Assembly (NCBI RefSeq): GCF_020164455.1
Contig: NZ_JAIQWW010000001.1
Span: 186,001 to 250,000, forward strand
Direction: 5' to 3'
DNA: 64,000 bases
DNA from: Phyllobacterium chamaecytisi
Lineage (GTDB): Bacteria > Pseudomonadota > Alphaproteobacteria > Rhizobiales > Rhizobiaceae
The position numbers and the translations under genes are program-made. Positions 42,989-49,535 of this stretch are shown piece by piece. The notes beneath the pieces are model-generated. The model was not told where the DNA came from and searched no databases. It saw only the letters and a program-made list of their open reading frames with translations. Position 1 is the stretch's first letter. The number at the start of each line of letters is the position of its first letter.

Positions 42989-43262
42989 CCCTGCATTCGT
43001 TGTGGTCTGCGACAATTCCAGCCATGTGTGGAGGAGTTTTATAAGCAGAAGCAGCAAGCGCCGAGCGAACCGGCGCATCGAGGAGATGGGCCTCCTCGAC
43101 CCGGCACGGGCCTTGCGGATAAAACTGGAGGTGAACTATGTGGTGGTTACCATTTAGCATCACGCTGACAACGAGAAGAACCCGGACGAGTTGGTCGCTC
43201 AGCATCCGGGTTCAATTCAACTAGTCAGAAAAAGGAGGGGCGGGTGAAAATCCGCTCCTCAC
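42989..43262 (+). repeat. Duplicated structured element, copy A
   Basis: This ~270-nt stretch is alignable by eye with copy B at 49,191-49,475. It starts CCCTGC(A/G)TTCGTTG, and carries hairpins at 43,058-43,076 (GCGCCG/CGGCGC), 43,078-43,099 (TCGAGGAG/CTCCTCGA), one inside a small ORF (AACCCGGA/TCCGGGTT, from 43,168 to 43,213) and a final 10-bp stem ~43,234-43,260 (GAGGGGCGGG/TCCGCTCCTC with GU pairs). Base pairs change in a compensated way between copies. The Shine-Dalgarno of the ORF can alternatively pair with the CCTCC arm of the second hairpin. No match to a named RNA family was recognised. The rest of the 42,903-43,384 gap shows nothing further. Confidence 0.7.
43138..43224 (+). CDS. 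Tiny basic protein A (28 aa), paralog of 49,343-49,435
   Basis: ATG preceded at 5 nt by a perfect GGAGGT (43,127-43,132). The product begins MWWLPFSITL, continues RRTRTSW and ends IRVQFN; it is basic with alternating hydrophobic residues, suggesting beta strands rather than a membrane helix. The copy B product shares P-F-x-x-T-L, R-T-R-T-x-W and R-V-x-F at the same spacing. Seven of the 13 conserved residues are encoded by synonymous third-base variants, which argues for selection on the protein. Function unknown. Confidence 0.65.
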   Translation: MWWLPFSITLTTRRTRTSWSLSIRVQFN

Positions 43263-43384
43263 TCCAAAACGGAATATAGCAGCTTTCTCATTATTTCCAA
43301 GCAGCACTGTTTTGGACTTTAGGCGCATGACAGAGATGATTAGTGTGGATCTCGGACGAGACTCAACCTTGAGGAGGGTGTCCC

Positions 43385-43741
43385 GTGGTCGTAAAACGCA
43401 TCGTTCCAAATTTCGCATGTCCTGACCCCGGCAGCGTTCGTGACTTCTATGAAAACTTGCTGGACCTGAAAGTCGTCATGGATCATGGATGGATTCTGAC
43501 ATTTGCATCCGACATTTCGGCAAGGCCGCAGATCAGCATCGCGAGCGAAGGAGGATCAGGCACCCCTGTTCCCGACATTTCGATCGAAGTGGAGGATGTC
43601 GATATGGTCTATCAGCGAGCGAGAACAGCCGGCTATGAGATCGCATATGATATCGCAGATGAGCCCTGGGGCGTCCGGCGTTTCTACGTCCGCGACCCAA
43701 CCGGACGATTGGTCAACATCTTGGCTCATGCTGTTGATTGA
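43385..43741 (+). CDS. VOC/glyoxalase-like protein
   Basis: A 118-residue single-module vicinal-oxygen-chelate protein: 'IVPNFACPDPGSVRDFYENL' opens, 'DISIEVEDVDMVYQRARTAG' lies midway and 'GVRRFYVRDPTGRLVNILAH' closes. The family covers glyoxalases, bleomycin-type binding proteins and dioxygenases; metal ligands are not all evident, so it may be a binding protein. Start is GTG with GAGGAGGGTG upstream. It meets the convergent marR gene with a 2-nt gap. Confidence 0.78.
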   Translation: MVVKRIVPNFACPDPGSVRDFYENLLDLKVVMDHGWILTFASDISARPQISIASEGGSGTPVPDISIEVEDVDMVYQRARTAGYEIAYDIADEPWGVRRFYVRDPTGRLVNILAHAVD

Positions 43742-43743
43742 GG

Positions 43744-44190
43744 TCACAAAAGCTTCTTCAAGCCGTTTAAAAGTCGATCATGCTCGCCGTCGGTGAGCAG
43801 TTCTTCAAGTTTGCCATGGGAACTCTTCCATATTGGCACGACTTCCGACAGCAGATGCATGCCATCCGACGTCAGTGCCATGAGGCGGCTGCGTTTGTCA
43901 GCAGGATCGACCACGACCCTCACCAGGCCACGGCGCTCCAGCGGCTTGAGGGCCGCGGTAAGTGTGGTTCGGTCCATCGCGAGCAATGAAGCTACGGAAC
44001 TCAGATTGGGAGGCGACGGCCGGTTCAGCGACATCAGCAGCGAAAACTGTCCGTTGGTGAGGTCATAAGGCCGCAAAGATTCATCGAAGCGGCGAGCTAG
44101 GGCACGCGCGGCCCGTTGTACAGCAAGGCACAAGCACGTATCGCGAACGTGAATTGTTGTTTCGAAAGGAACCAAAATCGGCTTTGACAT
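43744..44190 (-). CDS. MarR-family transcriptional regulator
   Basis: A 148-residue winged-helix repressor: 'DLTNGQFSLLMSLNRPSPPN' leads to the recognition region 'SSVASLLAMDRTTLTAALKP' and wing 'LVRVVVDPADKRSRLMALTS'. An N-terminal Cys-containing helix ('RDTCLCLAVQRAARAL') could sense oxidants or ligands. It is divergent from the two-domain VOC gene at 44,281, and a perfect palindrome just upstream of its own start is the probable operator for both. Confidence 0.88.
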   Translation of the reverse strand: MSKPILVPFETTIHVRDTCLCLAVQRAARALARRFDESLRPYDLTNGQFSLLMSLNRPSPPNLSSVASLLAMDRTTLTAALKPLERRGLVRVVVDPADKRSRLMALTSDGMHLLSEVVPIWKSSHGKLEELLTDGEHDRLLNGLKKLL

Positions 44191-44199
44191 GGCCTATAT

Positions 44200-44215
44200 A
44201 TGTTGATATCAACAT
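44200..44215. promoter_or_regulatory. Probable MarR operator, 16-bp perfect palindrome
   Basis: ATGTTGATATCAACAT is a perfect palindrome starting 10 nt upstream of the marR start codon, in the 90-bp region shared with the divergent VOC gene. Its TTGATATCAA core is the usual form of MarR-family operators, so autoregulation and control of the VOC gene are likely. Confidence 0.7.
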
Positions 44216-44280
44216 AATTGTCAATATTCAATCACAAGCCATCTATACAATCCGGTCGATCATGAGAAGGAGGAGCTATC

Positions 44281-45048
44281 ATGTCCAATTCCGGTAATTT
44301 TGTTTGGTATGAACTGATGACCAGCGATGCAGAAGCTGCGGAGGGCTTCTATAGCAATGTCGTCGGCTGGGGCGCGCAAGACGCTGGCCATCCGCAGATG
44401 AAATATACCTTGATGAAAGTAGGCGAGGCTCCGGTTGCCGGTATGATGACAACGCCTGAGGGCTGCAATACCGGCGTCGAGTCAATGTGGTCCGGCTATA
44501 TTGCCGTCGATGACGTCGATCAGTTTGCCGCCCGCGTAAAGGATGCGGGAGGCAAGATAACAGTCGAACCGCAGGACATACCGGAAGTCGGCAGGTTCGC
44601 GGTCGCTGCCGATCCGCAGGGCGCGCCGTTCACTCTGTTCAAGCCCTCGATGCAAGATCGCGGCGACAATCCCAAGCCCCCTACGCCGGGTACAGTTGGG
44701 TGGCACGAGCTAAACACCCGCGACTGGGAGAACGCATTTAAGTTTTATTCGGGCCTGTTTGGCTGGACCAAAGGTCAAGCCATGGACATGGGCGGTATGG
44801 GCACATACCAGATCGTGGAGCGCGACGGCCAAATGTTTGGTGCCATGATGAATAATCCTGAGCCATCAACCCGTCCAGCTTGGTGCTATTATATCTGCGT
44901 GGACGATATTAACGCCGCTGAATCAAGGATCAAGGACAAGGGCGGCAAGGTTGTCTTCGGGCCGATGGAAGTTCCCGGCGAGCAGTGGGTTTTGCAAGCG
45001 CTCGATCCGCAGGGCGTGTCTTTCGCTCTTCTTGGCCCCCGCAAATAA
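44281..45048 (+). CDS. Two-domain VOC family protein
   Basis: A 255-residue protein of two tandem glyoxalase-like modules: 'GNFVWYELMTSDAEAAEGFY' starts the first and 'VGWHELNTRDWENAFKFYSG' the second, with 'FAVAADPQGAPFTLFKP' and 'VLQALDPQGVSFALLGP' ending each. This is the YDR533-unrelated VOC group often annotated as a hydroxylase or antibiotic-resistance-like protein. The first base follows GAAGGAGGAGC. Expression is probably repressed by the adjacent MarR protein. Confidence 0.85.
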   Translation: MSNSGNFVWYELMTSDAEAAEGFYSNVVGWGAQDAGHPQMKYTLMKVGEAPVAGMMTTPEGCNTGVESMWSGYIAVDDVDQFAARVKDAGGKITVEPQDIPEVGRFAVAADPQGAPFTLFKPSMQDRGDNPKPPTPGTVGWHELNTRDWENAFKFYSGLFGWTKGQAMDMGGMGTYQIVERDGQMFGAMMNNPEPSTRPAWCYYICVDDINAAESRIKDKGGKVVFGPMEVPGEQWVLQALDPQGVSFALLGPRK

Positions 45049-45051
45049 GTT

Positions 45052-46560
45052 CTACTGAAACGCCATCTCGTAGAAACTGCGCAACTTTCTGGAGTGCAGT
45101 TTCTCGGGAGGCATCTCGGCCAGCTTTTCAAGGGCACGAATGCCGATCTGCAAGTGTTGCGCCACTTGGCGTTTGTAAAACTCCGTCGCCATGCCCGGCA
45201 GTTTCAATTCACCGTGCAGCGGCTTGTCGGAGACGCATAGCAGCGTTCCGTAAGGCACGCGGAACCGGAAACCATTCGCCGCGATCGTCGCCGATTCCAT
45301 GTCGAGCGCGATTGCGCGCGATTGCGATAGCCGTTTGACCGGGCCGCGCTGGTCGCGTAGCTCCCAATTGCGGTTGTCGATCGTCGCCACCGTACCGGTA
45401 CGCATGATGCGCTTCAGATCATACCCTTCGAGCCCGGTGATTTCCGCGACTGCCTGTTCAAGTGCGACCTGCACTTCGGCAAGTGCCGGGATAGGCACCC
45501 AGACCGGCAAATCGTCATCCAGCACATGATCTTCGCGCACGTAGGCATGGGCCAACACATAGTCGCCAAGCGCTTGGGTGTTGCGCAGCCCTGCGCAGTG
45601 GCCAAGCATGAGCCAGGCGTGCGGCCTCAACACCGCGATATGATCGGTAATCGTCTTGGCGTTGGAAGGGCCGACGCCGATATTGACCATGGTGATGCCA
45701 GAACGGTCGTCACGTGCGAGGTGATAGGCCGGCATCTGCGGTAACCGGCCGATCGGCACACCCGACGTCGGTGCATCATTGCCGGCTTCGGTGATGAGGT
45801 TACCCGGCTCGATAAAACGCTGATAGCTGCCACCGCCTTCCGCCATCAGCCCACGCGCCAATGCGCAAAATTCGTCGATGTAGAACTGATAGTTGGTGAA
45901 CAGCACGTAGTTCTGAAAATGCATCGGTCGCGTTGCCGTATAATGCGAGAGGCGGTGCAACGAATAGTCGACCCTTTGCGCGGTAAACGGCGACAGAGGC
46001 ATGATACTGTCGAGGTCGTCCGTTTCATATTCGCCGTTGACAATGCGATCATCCGTAGCTGCGAGATCCGGTACGTCGAAGAGATCGCGAAGCGGGCGGG
46101 TGAATGCATCCGCTACGGATGATTCGACGTGTGTGCCCTCAAGGAAGGCAAAGTGGATGGGGATCGGTGTCGTGGATTCCTGTACCGTCACGGGACCGCC
46201 ATGGTTGCGGATCAACAGCCTTATCTGTTCCTCGAGATAGTTGTCGAACAGGTCCGGCCGCGTGATGGTCGCCGTATATTGACCGGGTGCCGACACATGG
46301 CCGAATGCCAGGCGGGAATCGATCTGCGCATAGCTTGATGTTGAAAGACGCACTTCCGGATAGAAAGCGCGGAAATGCATTGTGTCGCGTTCTTCGCCTC
46401 GCGCAACTCTATCGAAGGCATCACGTAGAAACTTAGTATTGCGTTCATACAGCGCGCTGAGCGCCTGGACGGCCGCCTTGGCGTCGGTAAATTCTCGTCC
46501 TTCGACATGGCTGGGCATGCTGATGGCGGTGGGCTTCTTGGTTCCGATTCTTTTGTCCAT
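45052..46560 (-). CDS. amn: AMP nucleosidase
   Basis: A 502-residue bacterial AMP nucleosidase. The N-terminal regulatory part has 'HFRAFYPEVRLSTSSYAQID'; the phosphorylase-fold catalytic part contains 'MVNIGVGPSNAKTITDHIAV', 'WLMLGHCAGLR', 'DYVLAHAYVREDHVLDDDLP' and 'ALDMESATIAANGFRFRVPY' with the catalytic Asp region 'CVSDKPLHGELK'. It splits AMP to adenine and ribose-5-phosphate. ATG 46,560 is chosen: longer frames run into the palindromic repeat at 46,604-46,879, which lies only ~44 bp upstream and so must overlap or replace the promoter. Confidence 0.93.
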   Translation of the reverse strand: MDKRIGTKKPTAISMPSHVEGREFTDAKAAVQALSALYERNTKFLRDAFDRVARGEERDTMHFRAFYPEVRLSTSSYAQIDSRLAFGHVSAPGQYTATITRPDLFDNYLEEQIRLLIRNHGGPVTVQESTTPIPIHFAFLEGTHVESSVADAFTRPLRDLFDVPDLAATDDRIVNGEYETDDLDSIMPLSPFTAQRVDYSLHRLSHYTATRPMHFQNYVLFTNYQFYIDEFCALARGLMAEGGGSYQRFIEPGNLITEAGNDAPTSGVPIGRLPQMPAYHLARDDRSGITMVNIGVGPSNAKTITDHIAVLRPHAWLMLGHCAGLRNTQALGDYVLAHAYVREDHVLDDDLPVWVPIPALAEVQVALEQAVAEITGLEGYDLKRIMRTGTVATIDNRNWELRDQRGPVKRLSQSRAIALDMESATIAANGFRFRVPYGTLLCVSDKPLHGELKLPGMATEFYKRQVAQHLQIGIRALEKLAEMPPEKLHSRKLRSFYEMAFQ

Positions 46561-46603
46561 GCCCCAATATAGTGACATAGCATGACACTTGAAAAGCGGT
46601 GTC

Positions 46604-46879
46604 TTAGAGCGGTTTGCAATCATATTGGATCGATCCTGTTTCTCGGATGGCGAGACAATCCACGCGGAAGGTGGCGAGGTCGATGTGTTTCCATCGTCCG
46701 ACGCCGCCTGACAAAGTGGTTGGCCGCCAGCCGGAAACCCGAAGGGCCGGGTGAATTTGCTCCAAATCCTTCGGGTTTTGGCTTTGTCCGATGGAAAGGC
46801 ATCGGCCTCGCCAAACCCCTCGACCTTGAACCAAATTCCCTCCGGCAGGATGATTCAATATGATTGCAAACCGCTCTAA
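46604..46879. mobile_element. MITE-like palindromic repeat with perfect 24-bp terminal inverted repeats
   Basis: A 276-bp element bounded by 24-bp ends at 46,604-46,627 and 46,856-46,879 that are perfect reverse complements (outer bases TTAGAGCGG... and ...CCGCTCTAA). The interior also folds back on itself, e.g. GTTTCCATCGTCCGA near 46,690 against TCCGATGGAAAGGC near 46,785, with a central GAAACCCGAAGG / CCTTCGGGTTTT pair. There is no gene inside. TA at each edge is consistent with a TA target duplication. It resembles the RIME/Bru-RS class of rhizobial non-autonomous palindromic repeats. Confidence 0.8.
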
Positions 46880-47040
46880 ACTCTCTGCAGACTGACGAGG
46901 AGAACGAGCCCTATACCGCCGTTTGATGGGTTTCGCCCTTCATAGCTTGCGGCAAAAGCCACGACAGGACCGACGAGAATGGCAGAGAAAACTAGCGCAC
47001 GCAGAAAAAGCAGCGATAAATTTGCGGTTGATTGTATCAT
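46876..47040 (-). CDS. Small exported or membrane protein, possibly truncated by the repeat
   Basis: A 54-residue reading frame with AAGGGG just before ATG. It has a hydrophobic segment 'LSLLFLRALVFSAILVGPVV' 'AFA' resembling a signal peptide, then 'SYEGRNPSNGGIGLVLLVSL'. The stop codon is formed at the edge of the palindromic element, so the original gene may have been longer and been cut by the insertion. I do not recognise the family; coding status is uncertain. Confidence 0.35.
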   Translation of the reverse strand: MIQSTANLSLLFLRALVFSAILVGPVVAFAASYEGRNPSNGGIGLVLLVSLQRV

Positions 47041-47274
47041 GATCCCCTTACTCCCTGTCCCGGTGCGCCTTGGCATTGTTGATTTCGAGACAATGGCCCA
47101 ACCGGTCTGAACGAAAGCTGATGCGTTCGTTCATCGCGCGTTCAACCAAGTCGTAGGCGGCTGCCTGCAGAATTGATCGAGGCGGGGGCGTCTATCCAAG
47201 CAAGAGAGGCTCTTGTTCGGACGGCGACGAGAGGGCAGGAAATCTTTGCTTAACTCTTCAAAACTGAAAGAAAA

Positions 47275-47314
47275 AGGCAGCCATGGAGGGACAACCATGA
47301 CTGCCTGTCTTTTT
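47275..47314 (+). terminator. Terminator-like hairpin in the 47.1-47.6 kb gap
   Basis: Stem AGGCAGCCATGG / CCATGACTGCCT (one mismatch in 12) with an 8-nt loop, followed by GTCTTTTTG; the minus strand also has a T-run (CTTTTTCTTT) on the other side, so it may work in both directions. No gene ends here, so a small RNA upstream on the plus strand is possible. The remaining gap from 47,041 to 47,650 shows no convincing gene. Confidence 0.55.
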
Positions 47315-47650
47315 GCCCGTGACCAGCGAAGGATCTGTCCAGGCGTCTTGGTCTTGTATTGTTCAATCCGGGCAGGCGACGTACCAACGAATAAAATAGA
47401 CAATACTTTTTCTATTCTTGACCTCCCAGAATTTCACTCAGGCTTTGTATGCAGGGAGGATGCACACAAACGATGATGACTCAACGATACAAGATAAAAG
47501 AACTTCAATATTCGGCATTTCGAAACAACTACACGCTGAAAGCTGATTGATAAGAGATATCGCAAATTTCCGCAATTATACCTTAGTCTAAATCGATTGA
47601 ATTTAAAAAAATGGGACAACCCATGACGTAACTGGTATTGCGTCAATTCT

Positions 47651-48052
47651 TCATAAATGCCGAATTTCTGCAGGTTGACGCTCCCAATGATCGTGCTTTC
47701 CATCCTGGTAATCAACGGGAGCATTTAACAGCTCGTCAGGTGTCAAATCGTCCAGGCAAGCGACGTTTATCGCGTAGAACACACCCAAATCCGGTGTTTC
47801 ACCACGGCCGAACGGTTTGACCCCGCACGTCCGACAGAAGAAATGGACGATGGTTCGGCTGCCAAACTGGTATTCAGTCAAATAATTTGAGCCGGAGGTT
47901 ACCCGAAGGGCATTTTCGTCAATAAATGCCTTCCAAAAGCGAGTTTTTGCGCAAAACGAGCAATTACATTTGCTCGTGCCCTGGTCGAGATCGAGGTCGG
48001 CCTCGAAGCGGACAGAGCTGCAGTGACAGCTTCCGTGATACGTCTTTTTCAC
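47651..48052 (-). CDS. GFA family (glutathione-dependent formaldehyde-activating-like) protein
   Basis: A 133-residue zinc-binding protein of the GFA/CENP-V fold: 'GSCHCSSVRFEADLDL', 'TSKCNCSFCAKTRFWK' and 'VHFFCRTCGVKPFGRG' supply the paired Cys of two zinc sites. The original GFA joins formaldehyde to glutathione, but most homologs have unknown substrates. Single gene, divergent from the beta-lactamase gene. Confidence 0.9.
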   Translation of the reverse strand: MKKTYHGSCHCSSVRFEADLDLDQGTSKCNCSFCAKTRFWKAFIDENALRVTSGSNYLTEYQFGSRTIVHFFCRTCGVKPFGRGETPDLGVFYAINVACLDDLTPDELLNAPVDYQDGKHDHWERQPAEIRHL

Positions 48053-48249
48053 TCTTTCCTCCGAGGGTAGTGCATAACCTTACAGTTAAATAACCTTTTG
48101 GTTTATTAACGGTTGCGATCACAAAGGTCAAGTTTGCTGTCACCACTTTTTTGAGCCACAAATTTTCCTTGGAAACTGCCATTTCGGATATCAGCTTGCG
48201 ACCCGGCGAGAATCCTCGCTGTTTGATTTGTCGGAGATGGAGATGAGAA

Positions 48250-49140
48250 ATGAGTGGTCGTATCACGCGCCGCGGGGCACTGATTGGTTCAATTCTGGCA
48301 ATGCCGGTCCTCGCCTTGTCGCAGAGGTCAATACAGGCTGCATCGGAGAGCCGGACGGACCTTGCCGGCGCGTTCAAGGCAATCGAGGCGGAAGCTGGTG
48401 CGCGCCTTGGAGTTTCAGCACACGATACCGGCAGCGATAATCGCATCGAGTATCGCCAGCACGAGCGCTTTGCCATGTGCAGCACATTCAAGTTTCTCGC
48501 GGCGGCGGCGGTCCTCGCGCGCGTGGATCGCGGGCAGGAGCGACTGGAGCGGATTGTCACCTACAAGAACAGCGATCTCGTTCCCTATTCGCCGGTAACC
48601 GAAAAGCATGTTGGCAAGGGCATGTCCCTCGAAGCAATCTGCGAAGCCGCAATCACGATGAGCGATAACACAGCCGGCAATCTCATCCTCGACAGTCTTG
48701 GTGGGCCCAAGGGACTGACGAAATATGCGCGCAGCCTTGGCGATGCGACGTTCCGGCTGGACAGGCGCGAAACTGAACTCAACGAAGCGAAGCCTGGCGA
48801 CGACCGCGATACGATCACGCCGTCAGCGATCCTGAAGGATCTGCAGAAGACTGCTCTCGGTGATGCATTATCCAAATCGTCACGCGATCAGCTCACCGCG
48901 TGGATGCTGGCCAGCAAGACGGGAGACAAACGCTTGCGCGCCGGCCTGCCGAAGGACTGGAGTGTCGGTGACAAGACGGGAACCAGCGACAGCGGCATGG
49001 CCAACGATATCGCCGTCATCTGGCCTCCAAACCGCAAGCCCATTCTTCTGGCCGTGTATCTATATGACCCGAAAGGGACCGCTGACAGCCGCAACGATAT
49101 TCACAAGAAGGTTGCACAGCTGATAGCCGAAAATATCTGA
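48250..49140 (+). CDS. Class A beta-lactamase
   Basis: A 296-residue serine beta-lactamase. The N-terminus 'GRITRRGALIGSILAMPVLA' has the twin-arginine look of a Tat signal. Catalytic motifs: 'MCSTFKF' (Ser78, Lys81; Ambler S70xxK), 'SDN' at 138-140, 'RRETELNEA' (Glu174 = Ambler E166) and 'DKTGTSDSGMAND' (KTG at 242-244). Cys77 corresponds to Ambler 69, but no Cys follows KTGT, so the C69-C238 disulfide of carbapenemases is absent. It should hydrolyse penicillins and perhaps cephalosporins. No ampR-like or mobile gene is adjacent, so it appears chromosomal and resident. Confidence 0.94.
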   Translation: MSGRITRRGALIGSILAMPVLALSQRSIQAASESRTDLAGAFKAIEAEAGARLGVSAHDTGSDNRIEYRQHERFAMCSTFKFLAAAAVLARVDRGQERLERIVTYKNSDLVPYSPVTEKHVGKGMSLEAICEAAITMSDNTAGNLILDSLGGPKGLTKYARSLGDATFRLDRRETELNEAKPGDDRDTITPSAILKDLQKTALGDALSKSSRDQLTAWMLASKTGDKRLRAGLPKDWSVGDKTGTSDSGMANDIAVIWPPNRKPILLAVYLYDPKGTADSRNDIHKKVAQLIAENI

Positions 49141-49190
49141 TGGCAGAGACTTAAGGACAACCTGGCAAGGACGCAGGGCCATTTATTCAC

Positions 49191-49475
49191 CCCTGCGTTC
49201 GTTGCTGCTTTAGGCAAAAAGCAAGCCATGTGTTGCGCATCTTGCAGGCGAAGCAGAACGCACCGAGCCAGCCGGTGCATTGAGGAGGATAGGCCACCTC
49301 AACCATGGCAAAGGCCCTGCCTGTGAGATTTGGAGGTGCGCTATGCGGTATATGCCGTTTAGGGTCACCCTAGAATTGAAAAGGACCCGGACAGGCTGGC
49401 AAGTCATCGTCCGGGTCCACTTTTCGATAAACTAGGAAAAGGGAGGTAGGTAAAAACCTGCCTCCTGCTCCAACG
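49191..49475 (+). repeat. Duplicated structured element, copy B
   Basis: Second copy of the element at 42,989-43,262, same orientation. Hairpins: 49,260-49,278 (GCACCG/CGGTGC), 49,280-49,302 (TTGAGG/CCTCAA), ORF-internal GACCCGGA/TCCGGGTC, and a final 11-bp stem ~49,440-49,468 (GGGAGGTAGGT/ACCTGCCTCCT). Each arm differs from copy A with the pairing kept. CACCTC in the second hairpin can pair with the ORF's Shine-Dalgarno. Both copies begin next to TTTATNCA, a possible -10 box. It fills most of the gap between bla and the DUF2147 gene. Confidence 0.7.
49343..49435 (+). CDS. Tiny basic protein B (30 aa), paralog of 43,138-43,224
   Basis: ATG preceded at 5 nt by GGAGGT (49,332-49,337), the same spacing as copy A. 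The product begins MRYMPFRVTL, continues KRTRTGW and ends VRVHFSIN. It aligns without gaps to protein A except for two extra residues near the end. An upstream overlapping frame is broken relative to copy A by a 1-nt length change, whereas this frame is preserved. Function unknown. Confidence 0.65.
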   Translation: MRYMPFRVTLELKRTRTGWQVIVRVHFSIN

Positions 49476-49535
49476 ACAAGATAACATTTTCCGTCGTATT
49501 GCCAAGCGGCATCTGATCCTGGCGATTGAACTCGT

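Follow-up and report, generated by a model that had tools for sequence, protein, structure and literature searches.

A putative many-copy family of short structured mRNAs in the Hyphomicrobiales and its likeness to type I toxin-antitoxin loci

Several described type I toxin-antitoxin systems resemble, each in part, the element reported here. The Ldr/Rdl and Ibs/Sib systems of Escherichia coli occur in many copies, with tandem repeats, and encode hydrophobic toxins of ~20-35 residues, and close neighbouring pairs occur in other multi-copy type I families as well. In bsrG/SR4 and txpA/RatA of Bacillus, a convergent antisense RNA overlaps the 3' end of a toxin mRNA that has a simpler leader and encodes a hydrophobic toxin. 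For aapA/IsoA of Helicobacter pylori, the source describes several chromosomal copies, a full-length mRNA kept inert by a long-distance 5'-3' interaction between the Shine-Dalgarno sequence (SD) and a 3' anti-SD, additional SD masking inside the open reading frame (ORF), an antisense RNA, and activation by 3' truncation (PMC6733600). The hok/sok family has plasmid and chromosomal members, and its mRNA is inhibited by fold-back of the 5' and 3' ends and released by 3' processing (PMC8167048). Here we describe two copies of a short element in a window of 64,000 nucleotides (nt) of Phyllobacterium chamaecytisi (contig NZ_JAIQWW010000001.1, positions 186,001 to 250,000), which, by our analysis, appear to be members of an unnamed many-copy family of short structured mRNAs in the Hyphomicrobiales.

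The family shares its many copies, tandem repeats and peptide size with Ldr/Rdl and Ibs/Sib, from which it departs in RNA anatomy and in lacking their hydrophobic kind of toxin. The convergent antisense RNA over the mRNA 3' end, here predicted, recalls bsrG/SR4 and txpA/RatA, which belong to another phylum and differ in their hydrophobic toxins and simpler leaders. Several copies, SD/3' anti-SD pairing and SD masking in the ORF are shared with aapA/IsoA, the likeness being one of anatomy alone, with the antisense RNA known here by its promoter and no sequence relation sought (PMC6733600). A cloverleaf-like leader, a kissing loop into the ORF, an antisense promoter past the 3' end and a basic, beta-patterned peptide set the new element apart. 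Plasmid and chromosomal members and pairing of the mRNA ends are shared with hok/sok, in which, by contrast, Hok is a transmembrane toxin and Sok blocks the overlapping frame mok (PMC8167048). The preliminary description of this DNA knew of no described family of this form, and searches agree with it. Among the 4,227 families of Rfam the window had no match at the gathering threshold, and seven loci searched at E up to 5 gave sub-threshold matches only; four peptides matched no profile in Pfam, NCBIfam, PHROGs or PADLOC, the best match in the protein libraries being SnoaL_3, below threshold at 15.2 bits against a cut-off of 22. No description was found in the accessible portions of the open PMC literature (including PMC3927594, PMC2864571, PMC5082802, PMC8167048 and PMC6733600), to which the searches were confined.

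Much of what had been reported for the two window copies holds. Both lie on the plus strand 6.2 kb apart, with start codons separated by 6,205 bases, a GGAGGT 5 nt upstream of ATG and ORFs of 28 and 30 codons (43138-43221 and 49343-49432, each followed by a stop); the hairpin within the ORF is P6 and the final stem without a U-tract is P7 (Table 1). The element extends far beyond the window. Twelve copies are present in the P. chamaecytisi genome, seven on contig C1 and five on C8, the same 12 being recovered by a profile of the ORF and, independently, by a covariance model of the leader alone (built from 49 sequences), and the reading frame is kept in all of them. These, together with many more genomes, supply the frame-preserving homologs that the preliminary description had proposed to look for. 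When copy 2 served as the query for a DNA search of the genome, 11 matches were strong and one was at chance level; with copy 1 as the query, ten were strong and two at chance level, and neither query retrieved the other window copy. The ORF profile was positive in 22 of 59 genomes, namely its own, all 19 other Phyllobacterium and two of 15 others of the family, with 2-14 matches per Phyllobacterium genome, and the leader-only model found 166 matches across all 20 Phyllobacterium genomes; in genome G010 this model finds one copy and the ORF profile two. In a sample of the order, 31 of 397 genomes matched the leader at E <= 0.01: six were weaker than 1e-3, one was the genome itself, and the 24 others, none of them used to train the model, matched at E < 1e-7. 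At the best locus of each of these 24, an intact family ORF directly follows the leader in 21 (one of which, L263, lacks GGAG) and the ORF is broken in three (L247, L254, L265); remote peptides include MSRKRWTLEISLTKYADRWRLTVRINFAR. In a sample of the class, searched at E <= 1e-4 with stricter filters, the genome itself was the sole match (1/385).

Plasmids carry the element too. With the peptide of a plasmid copy as query, matches were found in 39 of 72,556 plasmid records, 26 of them typed as conjugative or mobilizable, from Sinorhizobium, Roseibium/Labrenzia, Agrobacterium, Microvirga, Shinella, Ochrobactrum, Pararhizobium, Ancylobacter and other hosts; no annotated feature lies beneath the match in 38 of the 39, one record being unannotated (the gene table is incomplete). 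Ten of the 14 plasmid loci scanned for an ORF were retained, L275 and L284 carrying variant ORFs that fall outside the rule, and no family ORF was seen in two pSymA matches found by DNA (L271, L272). Contig MW462191 has matches at four places and contributes two rows (L062) to the alignments. An exact-pattern search returned 24 stretches, 23 from Phyllobacterium and one from Nocardioides without an ORF.

The family shares a fold of 63 pairs. The leader, in which two hairpins had been noted earlier, instead contains three (P2, P3 and P4) enclosed by a closing stem, P1; this cloverleaf-like structure ends directly 5' of the SD and is accompanied by SD/3' anti-SD pairing, SD pairing with CACC in codons 8-10, P5 (codons 2-5), P6, P7 and a kissing helix. 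The predicted fold of each window copy surpasses 100 of 100 shuffles (z -4.7 for copy 1 and -6.7 for copy 2). Covariation was counted on a 58-row alignment of window copy 2 and 57 of 90 candidates from Phyllobacterium, other genomes and plasmids: the candidate script omitted L009, L070, L140, L127, L128 and L117, 70 candidates were taken forward, and 13 of these, window copy 1 (L019) included, were removed by hand. The other 98 rows were then added onto this fixed alignment to give 156 rows, both sets holding intact ORFs only. Among the 58 rows, 88.9% of cells are paired and 51 of 63 pairs are changed on both sides, the number of such cells being 427, where shuffles average 132 (none of 500 as high) and partners slid by 1-3 columns give 89-134, a comparison in which the true register is favoured, as the structure was projected from copy 2, itself one of the sequences. 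The 156 rows give 91.9% paired cells, 54 of 63 pairs changed on both sides and 974 such cells, where shuffles average 308 (at most 347 in 60 shuffles) and slid versions give 145-303; the 98 added rows by themselves reach 93.7% with 48 pairs changed on both sides. When all 156 rows were aligned de novo, pairing was low (P1 59.9%, SD/3' end 64.4%, SD/CACC 13.5%, as against 91.8, 93.9 and 91.8% in the fixed alignment); we attribute this to the window row having moved out of register in those parts.

Two pairings engage the SD, one with CTCC at the 3' end of the RNA and the other with CACC in the ORF, and the first of them goes beyond what the preliminary description had recognized. In the 156 rows, the 93.9% of paired cells in the SD/3' helix exceeds a shuffle maximum of 86.7. 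Bases upstream of the SD co-vary with those downstream of the anti-SD, with 117, 101 and 72 of 132 distinct elements paired at three positions, compared with maxima of 103, 93 and 64 in 2,000 shuffles (11 of the 156 were unmatched by the search rule); a fourth flanking position showed no covariation beyond shuffles in these 132 elements. By comparison of sequences, the family thus has the masked translation start and the 5'-3' mRNA interaction that are frequent in type I toxin-antitoxin systems.

A further long-range contact, the kissing helix, joins the P2 loop of the leader to the P6 loop inside the ORF. Across 156 rows, 94.0% of its cells are paired (shuffle maximum 91.2), five of the six pairs are changed on both sides, and there are 28 such cells (shuffle maximum 12). 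In the consensus register, 146 of 156 rows make five or six of the six pairs and four make three or fewer (L245, L250, L260 and one copy of L072 whose pairing lies in a different register). Complementary variants are found in GGTAGC/GCTACC (L014), GACCACG/CGTGGTC (L221) and GAGCGA/TCGCTC (window copy 1). A first control, in which loops were shuffled, was weak (5.33 with the own partner versus 5.03, at most 5.17, after shuffling), since CCAG/CTGG is common to nearly all loops. The 55 variant loops did no better with their own partner than with the consensus loop (4.76 vs 5.13), in part because wrong hairpins had been picked. Where the P2 loop has CCAG, the ORF loop has CTGG in 105 of 109 cases; among 16 P2 loops without CCAG, ten form at least five Watson-Crick pairs with their own ORF loop, only seven of these being matched by 5% or fewer of other ORF loops, and the remainder comprise three misparsed loops (L222, L091, L255) and three misfits (L227, the first L072 copy, L140). 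After this weak first control, the helix gained support from the position-based counts in the 58 and 156 rows.

Paired sites also carry information on the strand. A G-U pair can form in the plus-strand RNA, and an A-C site corresponds to G-U in the opposite RNA, so the excess of G-U over A-C (667:176 when nine of the ten helices are summed across the 156 rows; 280:51 in P7 and 135:29 in P1) speaks for an RNA from the plus strand.

The encoded peptide is basic and ~29 residues long, with the consensus MWxLPFSITLxxKRTRTxWxxxxRVHF among the 12 genome copies and four and six Arg/Lys in the two window peptides. ORFs of 28-30 codons in this genome are in keeping with the constrained frame of fewer than 60 residues expected of a type I toxin. 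For 114 distinct Phyllobacterium ORFs (3,770 pairs, which are not independent), an omega-like ratio, proposed earlier as a check, is ~0.40 in frame and 0.87 and 1.55 in the other two frames. Codons 6-12 give 0.28 against 0.73 and 2.35; the P5 region hardly sets frame 0 (0.51) apart from +1 (0.61; 1.80 in the third frame), and the ratio of 0.92 in the P6 3' arm indicates that the RNA rules there. Leu10 is encoded by all four CTN codons and Phe27 by both TTY codons. The second codon position is fixed or nearly fixed as T at codons 8, 10, 12, 21, 23, 25 and 27 while the first or third varies, giving an alternating hydrophobic pattern. An AlphaFold2 model has two strands, residues 6-14 and 19-27 (mean predicted local distance difference test score 79.9, predicted template modelling score 0.31), which is weak but consistent evidence for a two-stranded beta-hairpin. 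The preliminary description had counted different synonymous codons at seven of 13 shared residues, a count that we reproduce, and had read them as the signature of selection on the protein. The protein constraint stands; the codon argument taken by itself is less clear-cut, because some of the changes are compensatory in the P5 and P6 folds, so that selection acts on RNA and peptide alike. Single codons lie under both forces: W2/R2 (TGG/CGG) tracks Pro CCA/CCG in P5, and T15I tracks V25I in P6 (ACC/GTC versus ATC/ATC). In a subfamily (L220, L224, L228, L239, L241, L210), KRIRxRW or KKIRSRW with RIxF replaces KRTRTxW with RVxF; the two substitutions correspond to opposite sides of a single RNA stem.

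Downstream of the ORF, the minus strand carries a promoter-like signal. A match of at least nine of 12 to TTGACA/TATAAT is found in 96 of 153 distinct 90-nt segments 3' of the ORF, compared with 8-16 in ten shuffles and two on the plus strand, and in 124 of the 153 the -10 of the best match lies within the first 15 nt; TTGAAA or TTGATT prevails in distant families, with a spacing of 16-17 nt. We infer that a sigma70-type promoter facing leftward lies immediately beyond the 3' end; an antisense RNA from it would begin at about the anti-SD and extend back across P7 and the ORF. Upstream of the leader, sigma70-like matches of at least nine of 12 occur on the minus strand in 38 of 153 segments (plus-strand shuffles 16-23), to which tandem neighbours may contribute. 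The sequence TTCAACCCTGCATTCGTTG, ~145-175 nt upstream of ATG, is present with at most five mismatches in both L062 rows and in 103 of the 118 elements from Phyllobacterium. ACAAC stands upstream of it in 56 of these 105, at a distance of mostly 30-31 or 21 nt. In the 35 other elements TTCAACCCTGCATTCGTTG has at least seven mismatches; it is possibly an operator or an unusual promoter. In L242, L248 and L277 (the last from Roseibium), TTAA-N7-TTAA, the CtrA box, stands upstream of P1 at the expected site of a sense promoter and could place the sense RNA under cell-cycle control.

We lean, with modest confidence, towards the view that each copy is a self-contained gene of ~250-300 nt working like a type I toxin-antitoxin locus, a role that the evidence favours among the three left open earlier. 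By comparison of sequences the plus-strand RNA adopts a closed form, with P1-P4 and the kissing helix holding the leader against the coding region and the SD held by the CTCC of the RNA 3' end and the CACC in the ORF, so that the full-length mRNA would be translationally silent and stable. Antisense RNA from the leftward promoter would form a duplex with the mRNA and lead to its decay, so that the peptide stays off. If the mRNA were cut back at its 3' end, or if the antisense RNA disappeared (e.g., when a plasmid is lost), the SD would be freed and a growth-inhibiting basic peptide produced. A bolder version, which we regard as tentative and rather doubtful, is a class of toxin-antitoxin-like loci native to the Hyphomicrobiales, with a tertiary-locked mRNA, an amphipathic beta-hairpin peptide resembling antimicrobial peptides in place of a membrane helix, invariant unpaired leader bases that may sense a signal, and apparent exchange of ORF cassettes. 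If true, the toxin-antitoxin interpretation would add a widespread RNA-controlled toxin system of rhizobia and their relatives, on chromosomes and conjugative plasmids, whose peptide would differ in type from the known type I toxins and whose mRNA would be locked by contacts reaching into its own ORF; the family also offers a clear case of RNA and protein constraint on the same codons.

A number of observations weigh against this interpretation. The peptide, as read from its sequence and with no membrane predictor run, lacks the hydrophobic transmembrane segment of most type I toxins, and no sense-strand sigma70 promoter signal was seen 5' of the element (18 of 153, with 16-23 in shuffles). 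On the strand, the SD/3' helix is neutral (G-U:A-C 28:29) and P6 opposes the argument, with G-U 11 versus A-C 117 in columns 177-212 of the 156 rows; 92 of these A-C cells fall in two edge pairs, and the inner eight pairs give 7 versus 25. As P6 is part of the coding sequence, the exception may be due to codon constraint, or the antisense RNA may use the P6 hairpin. The unpaired leader bases AAGCAG and GATGGGCC are near-invariant across the order, more conserved than would be expected of a plain toxin mRNA. Such bases, in a cloverleaf-like leader placed directly before the SD, would suit a riboswitch-like leader that senses a ligand or protein and gates a useful, non-toxic micropeptide, with the antisense RNA for tuning; column 218 of a 100-row alignment, which co-varies with 209 (P4) and 200 (P3 loop), hints at a triple or at the alternative pairings that such a sensor could use. 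We nevertheless judge a sensor improbable, as no common regulated neighbour was seen, no Rfam class matched, and tandem copies and plasmid carriage would be odd for it.

Broken reading frames also count on that side. Among 148 leader matches read, 127 have a typical ORF, a share inflated by the fact that loci were fetched mostly through ORF matches and leader-only matches were added later, and 21 do not; a family-like ORF remains in five of the latter (L206, L094, L131, L128, L232), and in the other 16 the ORF is frameshifted, interrupted by a stop, truncated or missing. A broken frame with the RNA kept had been named in the preliminary description as a sign against a coding element, and it is seen in this part of the family. 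Trp19 is moreover lost in L245, L250, L260 and L276, yet their loop-loop complement is kept. The RNA can therefore outlive the frame, as expected of decaying toxin loci and equally of an RNA-only role. The second of these would make the element a dual-function or pure RNA, such as a trans-acting small RNA or an RNA sponge, whose ORF is a remnant or a by-product of the fold; the strong structure and the relaxed ratio in the P6 3' arm fit that view as well. We give it a small chance, since it does not account for the low in-frame ratio of codons 6-12, the free choice of codons for Leu10 and Phe27, the preserved start codon and SD, or the Trp that is kept in copies kissing through TCGCTC rather than the TGG codon (L019, L083). 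The 16 loci are taken to be decaying copies because of the 127 typical and five further family-like ORFs.

Table 1. Features of the two window copies (positions within the 64,000-nt window)
Feature	Position	Strand	Details	Basis
Copy 1 leader	43037..43124	+	P1 43037-43046/43115-43124 enclosing P2 43058-43063/43071-43076, P3, P4	fold, covariation
Copy 1 P2-loop kissing sequence GAGCGA	43063..43068	+	6 Watson-Crick pairs with TCGCTC 43195-43200 in ORF	
Copy 1 Shine-Dalgarno GGAGG	43127..43131	+	TGGAG 43126-43130 pairs with CTCCA 43262-43266	SD/anti-SD covariation
Copy 1 ORF	43138..43224	+	28 codons + stop, MWWLPFSITLTTRRTRTSWSLSIRVQFN	frame test
Copy 1 P6 hairpin within ORF	43178..43213	+		fold, family covariation
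Copy 1 P7 final stem	43233..43260	+	bounds approximate	fold, family covariation
Copy 1 3' anti-SD CTCCA	43262..43266	+		SD/anti-SD covariation
Copy 1 leftward promoter (predicted)	43273..43300	-	-35 TTGGAA 43300-43295, 16-nt spacer, -10 TATATT 43278-43273	family statistics
Copy 2 leader	49240..49328	+	P1 49240-49249/49319-49328 enclosing P2 49260-49265/49273-49278, P3 49280-49285/49297-49302, P4	
Copy 2 P2-loop kissing sequence GCCAGC	49267..49272	+	complement GCTGGC 49395-49400 in ORF	family covariation
Copy 2 Shine-Dalgarno GGAGG	49332..49336	+	TTGGAG 49330-49335 pairs with CTCCAA 49468-49473; GTG 49336-49338 pairs with CAC 49366-49368	
Copy 2 ORF	49343..49435	+	30 codons + stop, MRYMPFRVTLELKRTRTGWQVIVRVHFSIN	frame test; beta-hairpin model
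Copy 2 P6 hairpin within ORF	49383..49418	+		fold, family covariation
Copy 2 P7 final stem	49441..49466	+	no U-tract	fold, family covariation
Copy 2 3' anti-SD CTCCAA	49468..49473	+		family covariation
Copy 2 leftward promoter (predicted)	49478..49505	-	-35 TTGGCA 49505-49500, 16-nt spacer, -10 TATCTT 49483-49478	family statistics

The genomic surroundings bear on two other explanations. In the window, judged by eye, the gene after copy 1 is VOC-like and on the same strand, and the one after copy 2 is DUF2147-like and on the other strand. Short ORF, strong SD and hairpins could together form an attenuator with a leader peptide for the next gene, one of the roles left open in the preliminary description. 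This carries the slightest probability of the readings considered here, for neighbours vary from copy to copy in either orientation (by eye, uncounted), without the fixed downstream gene that an attenuator calls for, and the 3' stem has no U-tract. The opened plasmid regions, 16 in number, include four without an annotated gene, one with an element ~0.6 kb before RepC and two with an element ~2 kb after the ParB gene.

Copies also lie close together: among the leader matches listed, 16 pairs of neighbours are separated by 356-485 bp. Such tandem pairs and the multiplicity of ORF-profile matches in every Phyllobacterium genome might point to a non-autonomous mobile or repeat element, similar to miniature inverted-repeat transposable elements or repetitive extragenic palindromic sequences, that holds an ORF by chance. 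At the rpmG locus of two species (L013 and L122), the flanks are ~95% identical and much of the leader and 3' end is shared, and the ORFs differ strongly, which could be taken in the same sense; it looks as if ORF cassettes had been exchanged between copies, gene conversion being one reading. A mobile element of this kind is very unlikely in our view, given the compensatory fold, the coding constraint and the sites common to several species, namely the two loci of the window and the one at rpmG. Sequences flanking copies 1 and 2 are found again in other species, so the copies stay in place instead of hopping. Flanks akin to those of copy 2 accompany it in the Phyllobacterium loci L074, L217, L203 and, in part, L128. 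An ORF on the plus strand at 48250-49140 of the window, resembling a class A beta-lactamase by eye, ends ~100 bases before the leader of copy 2.

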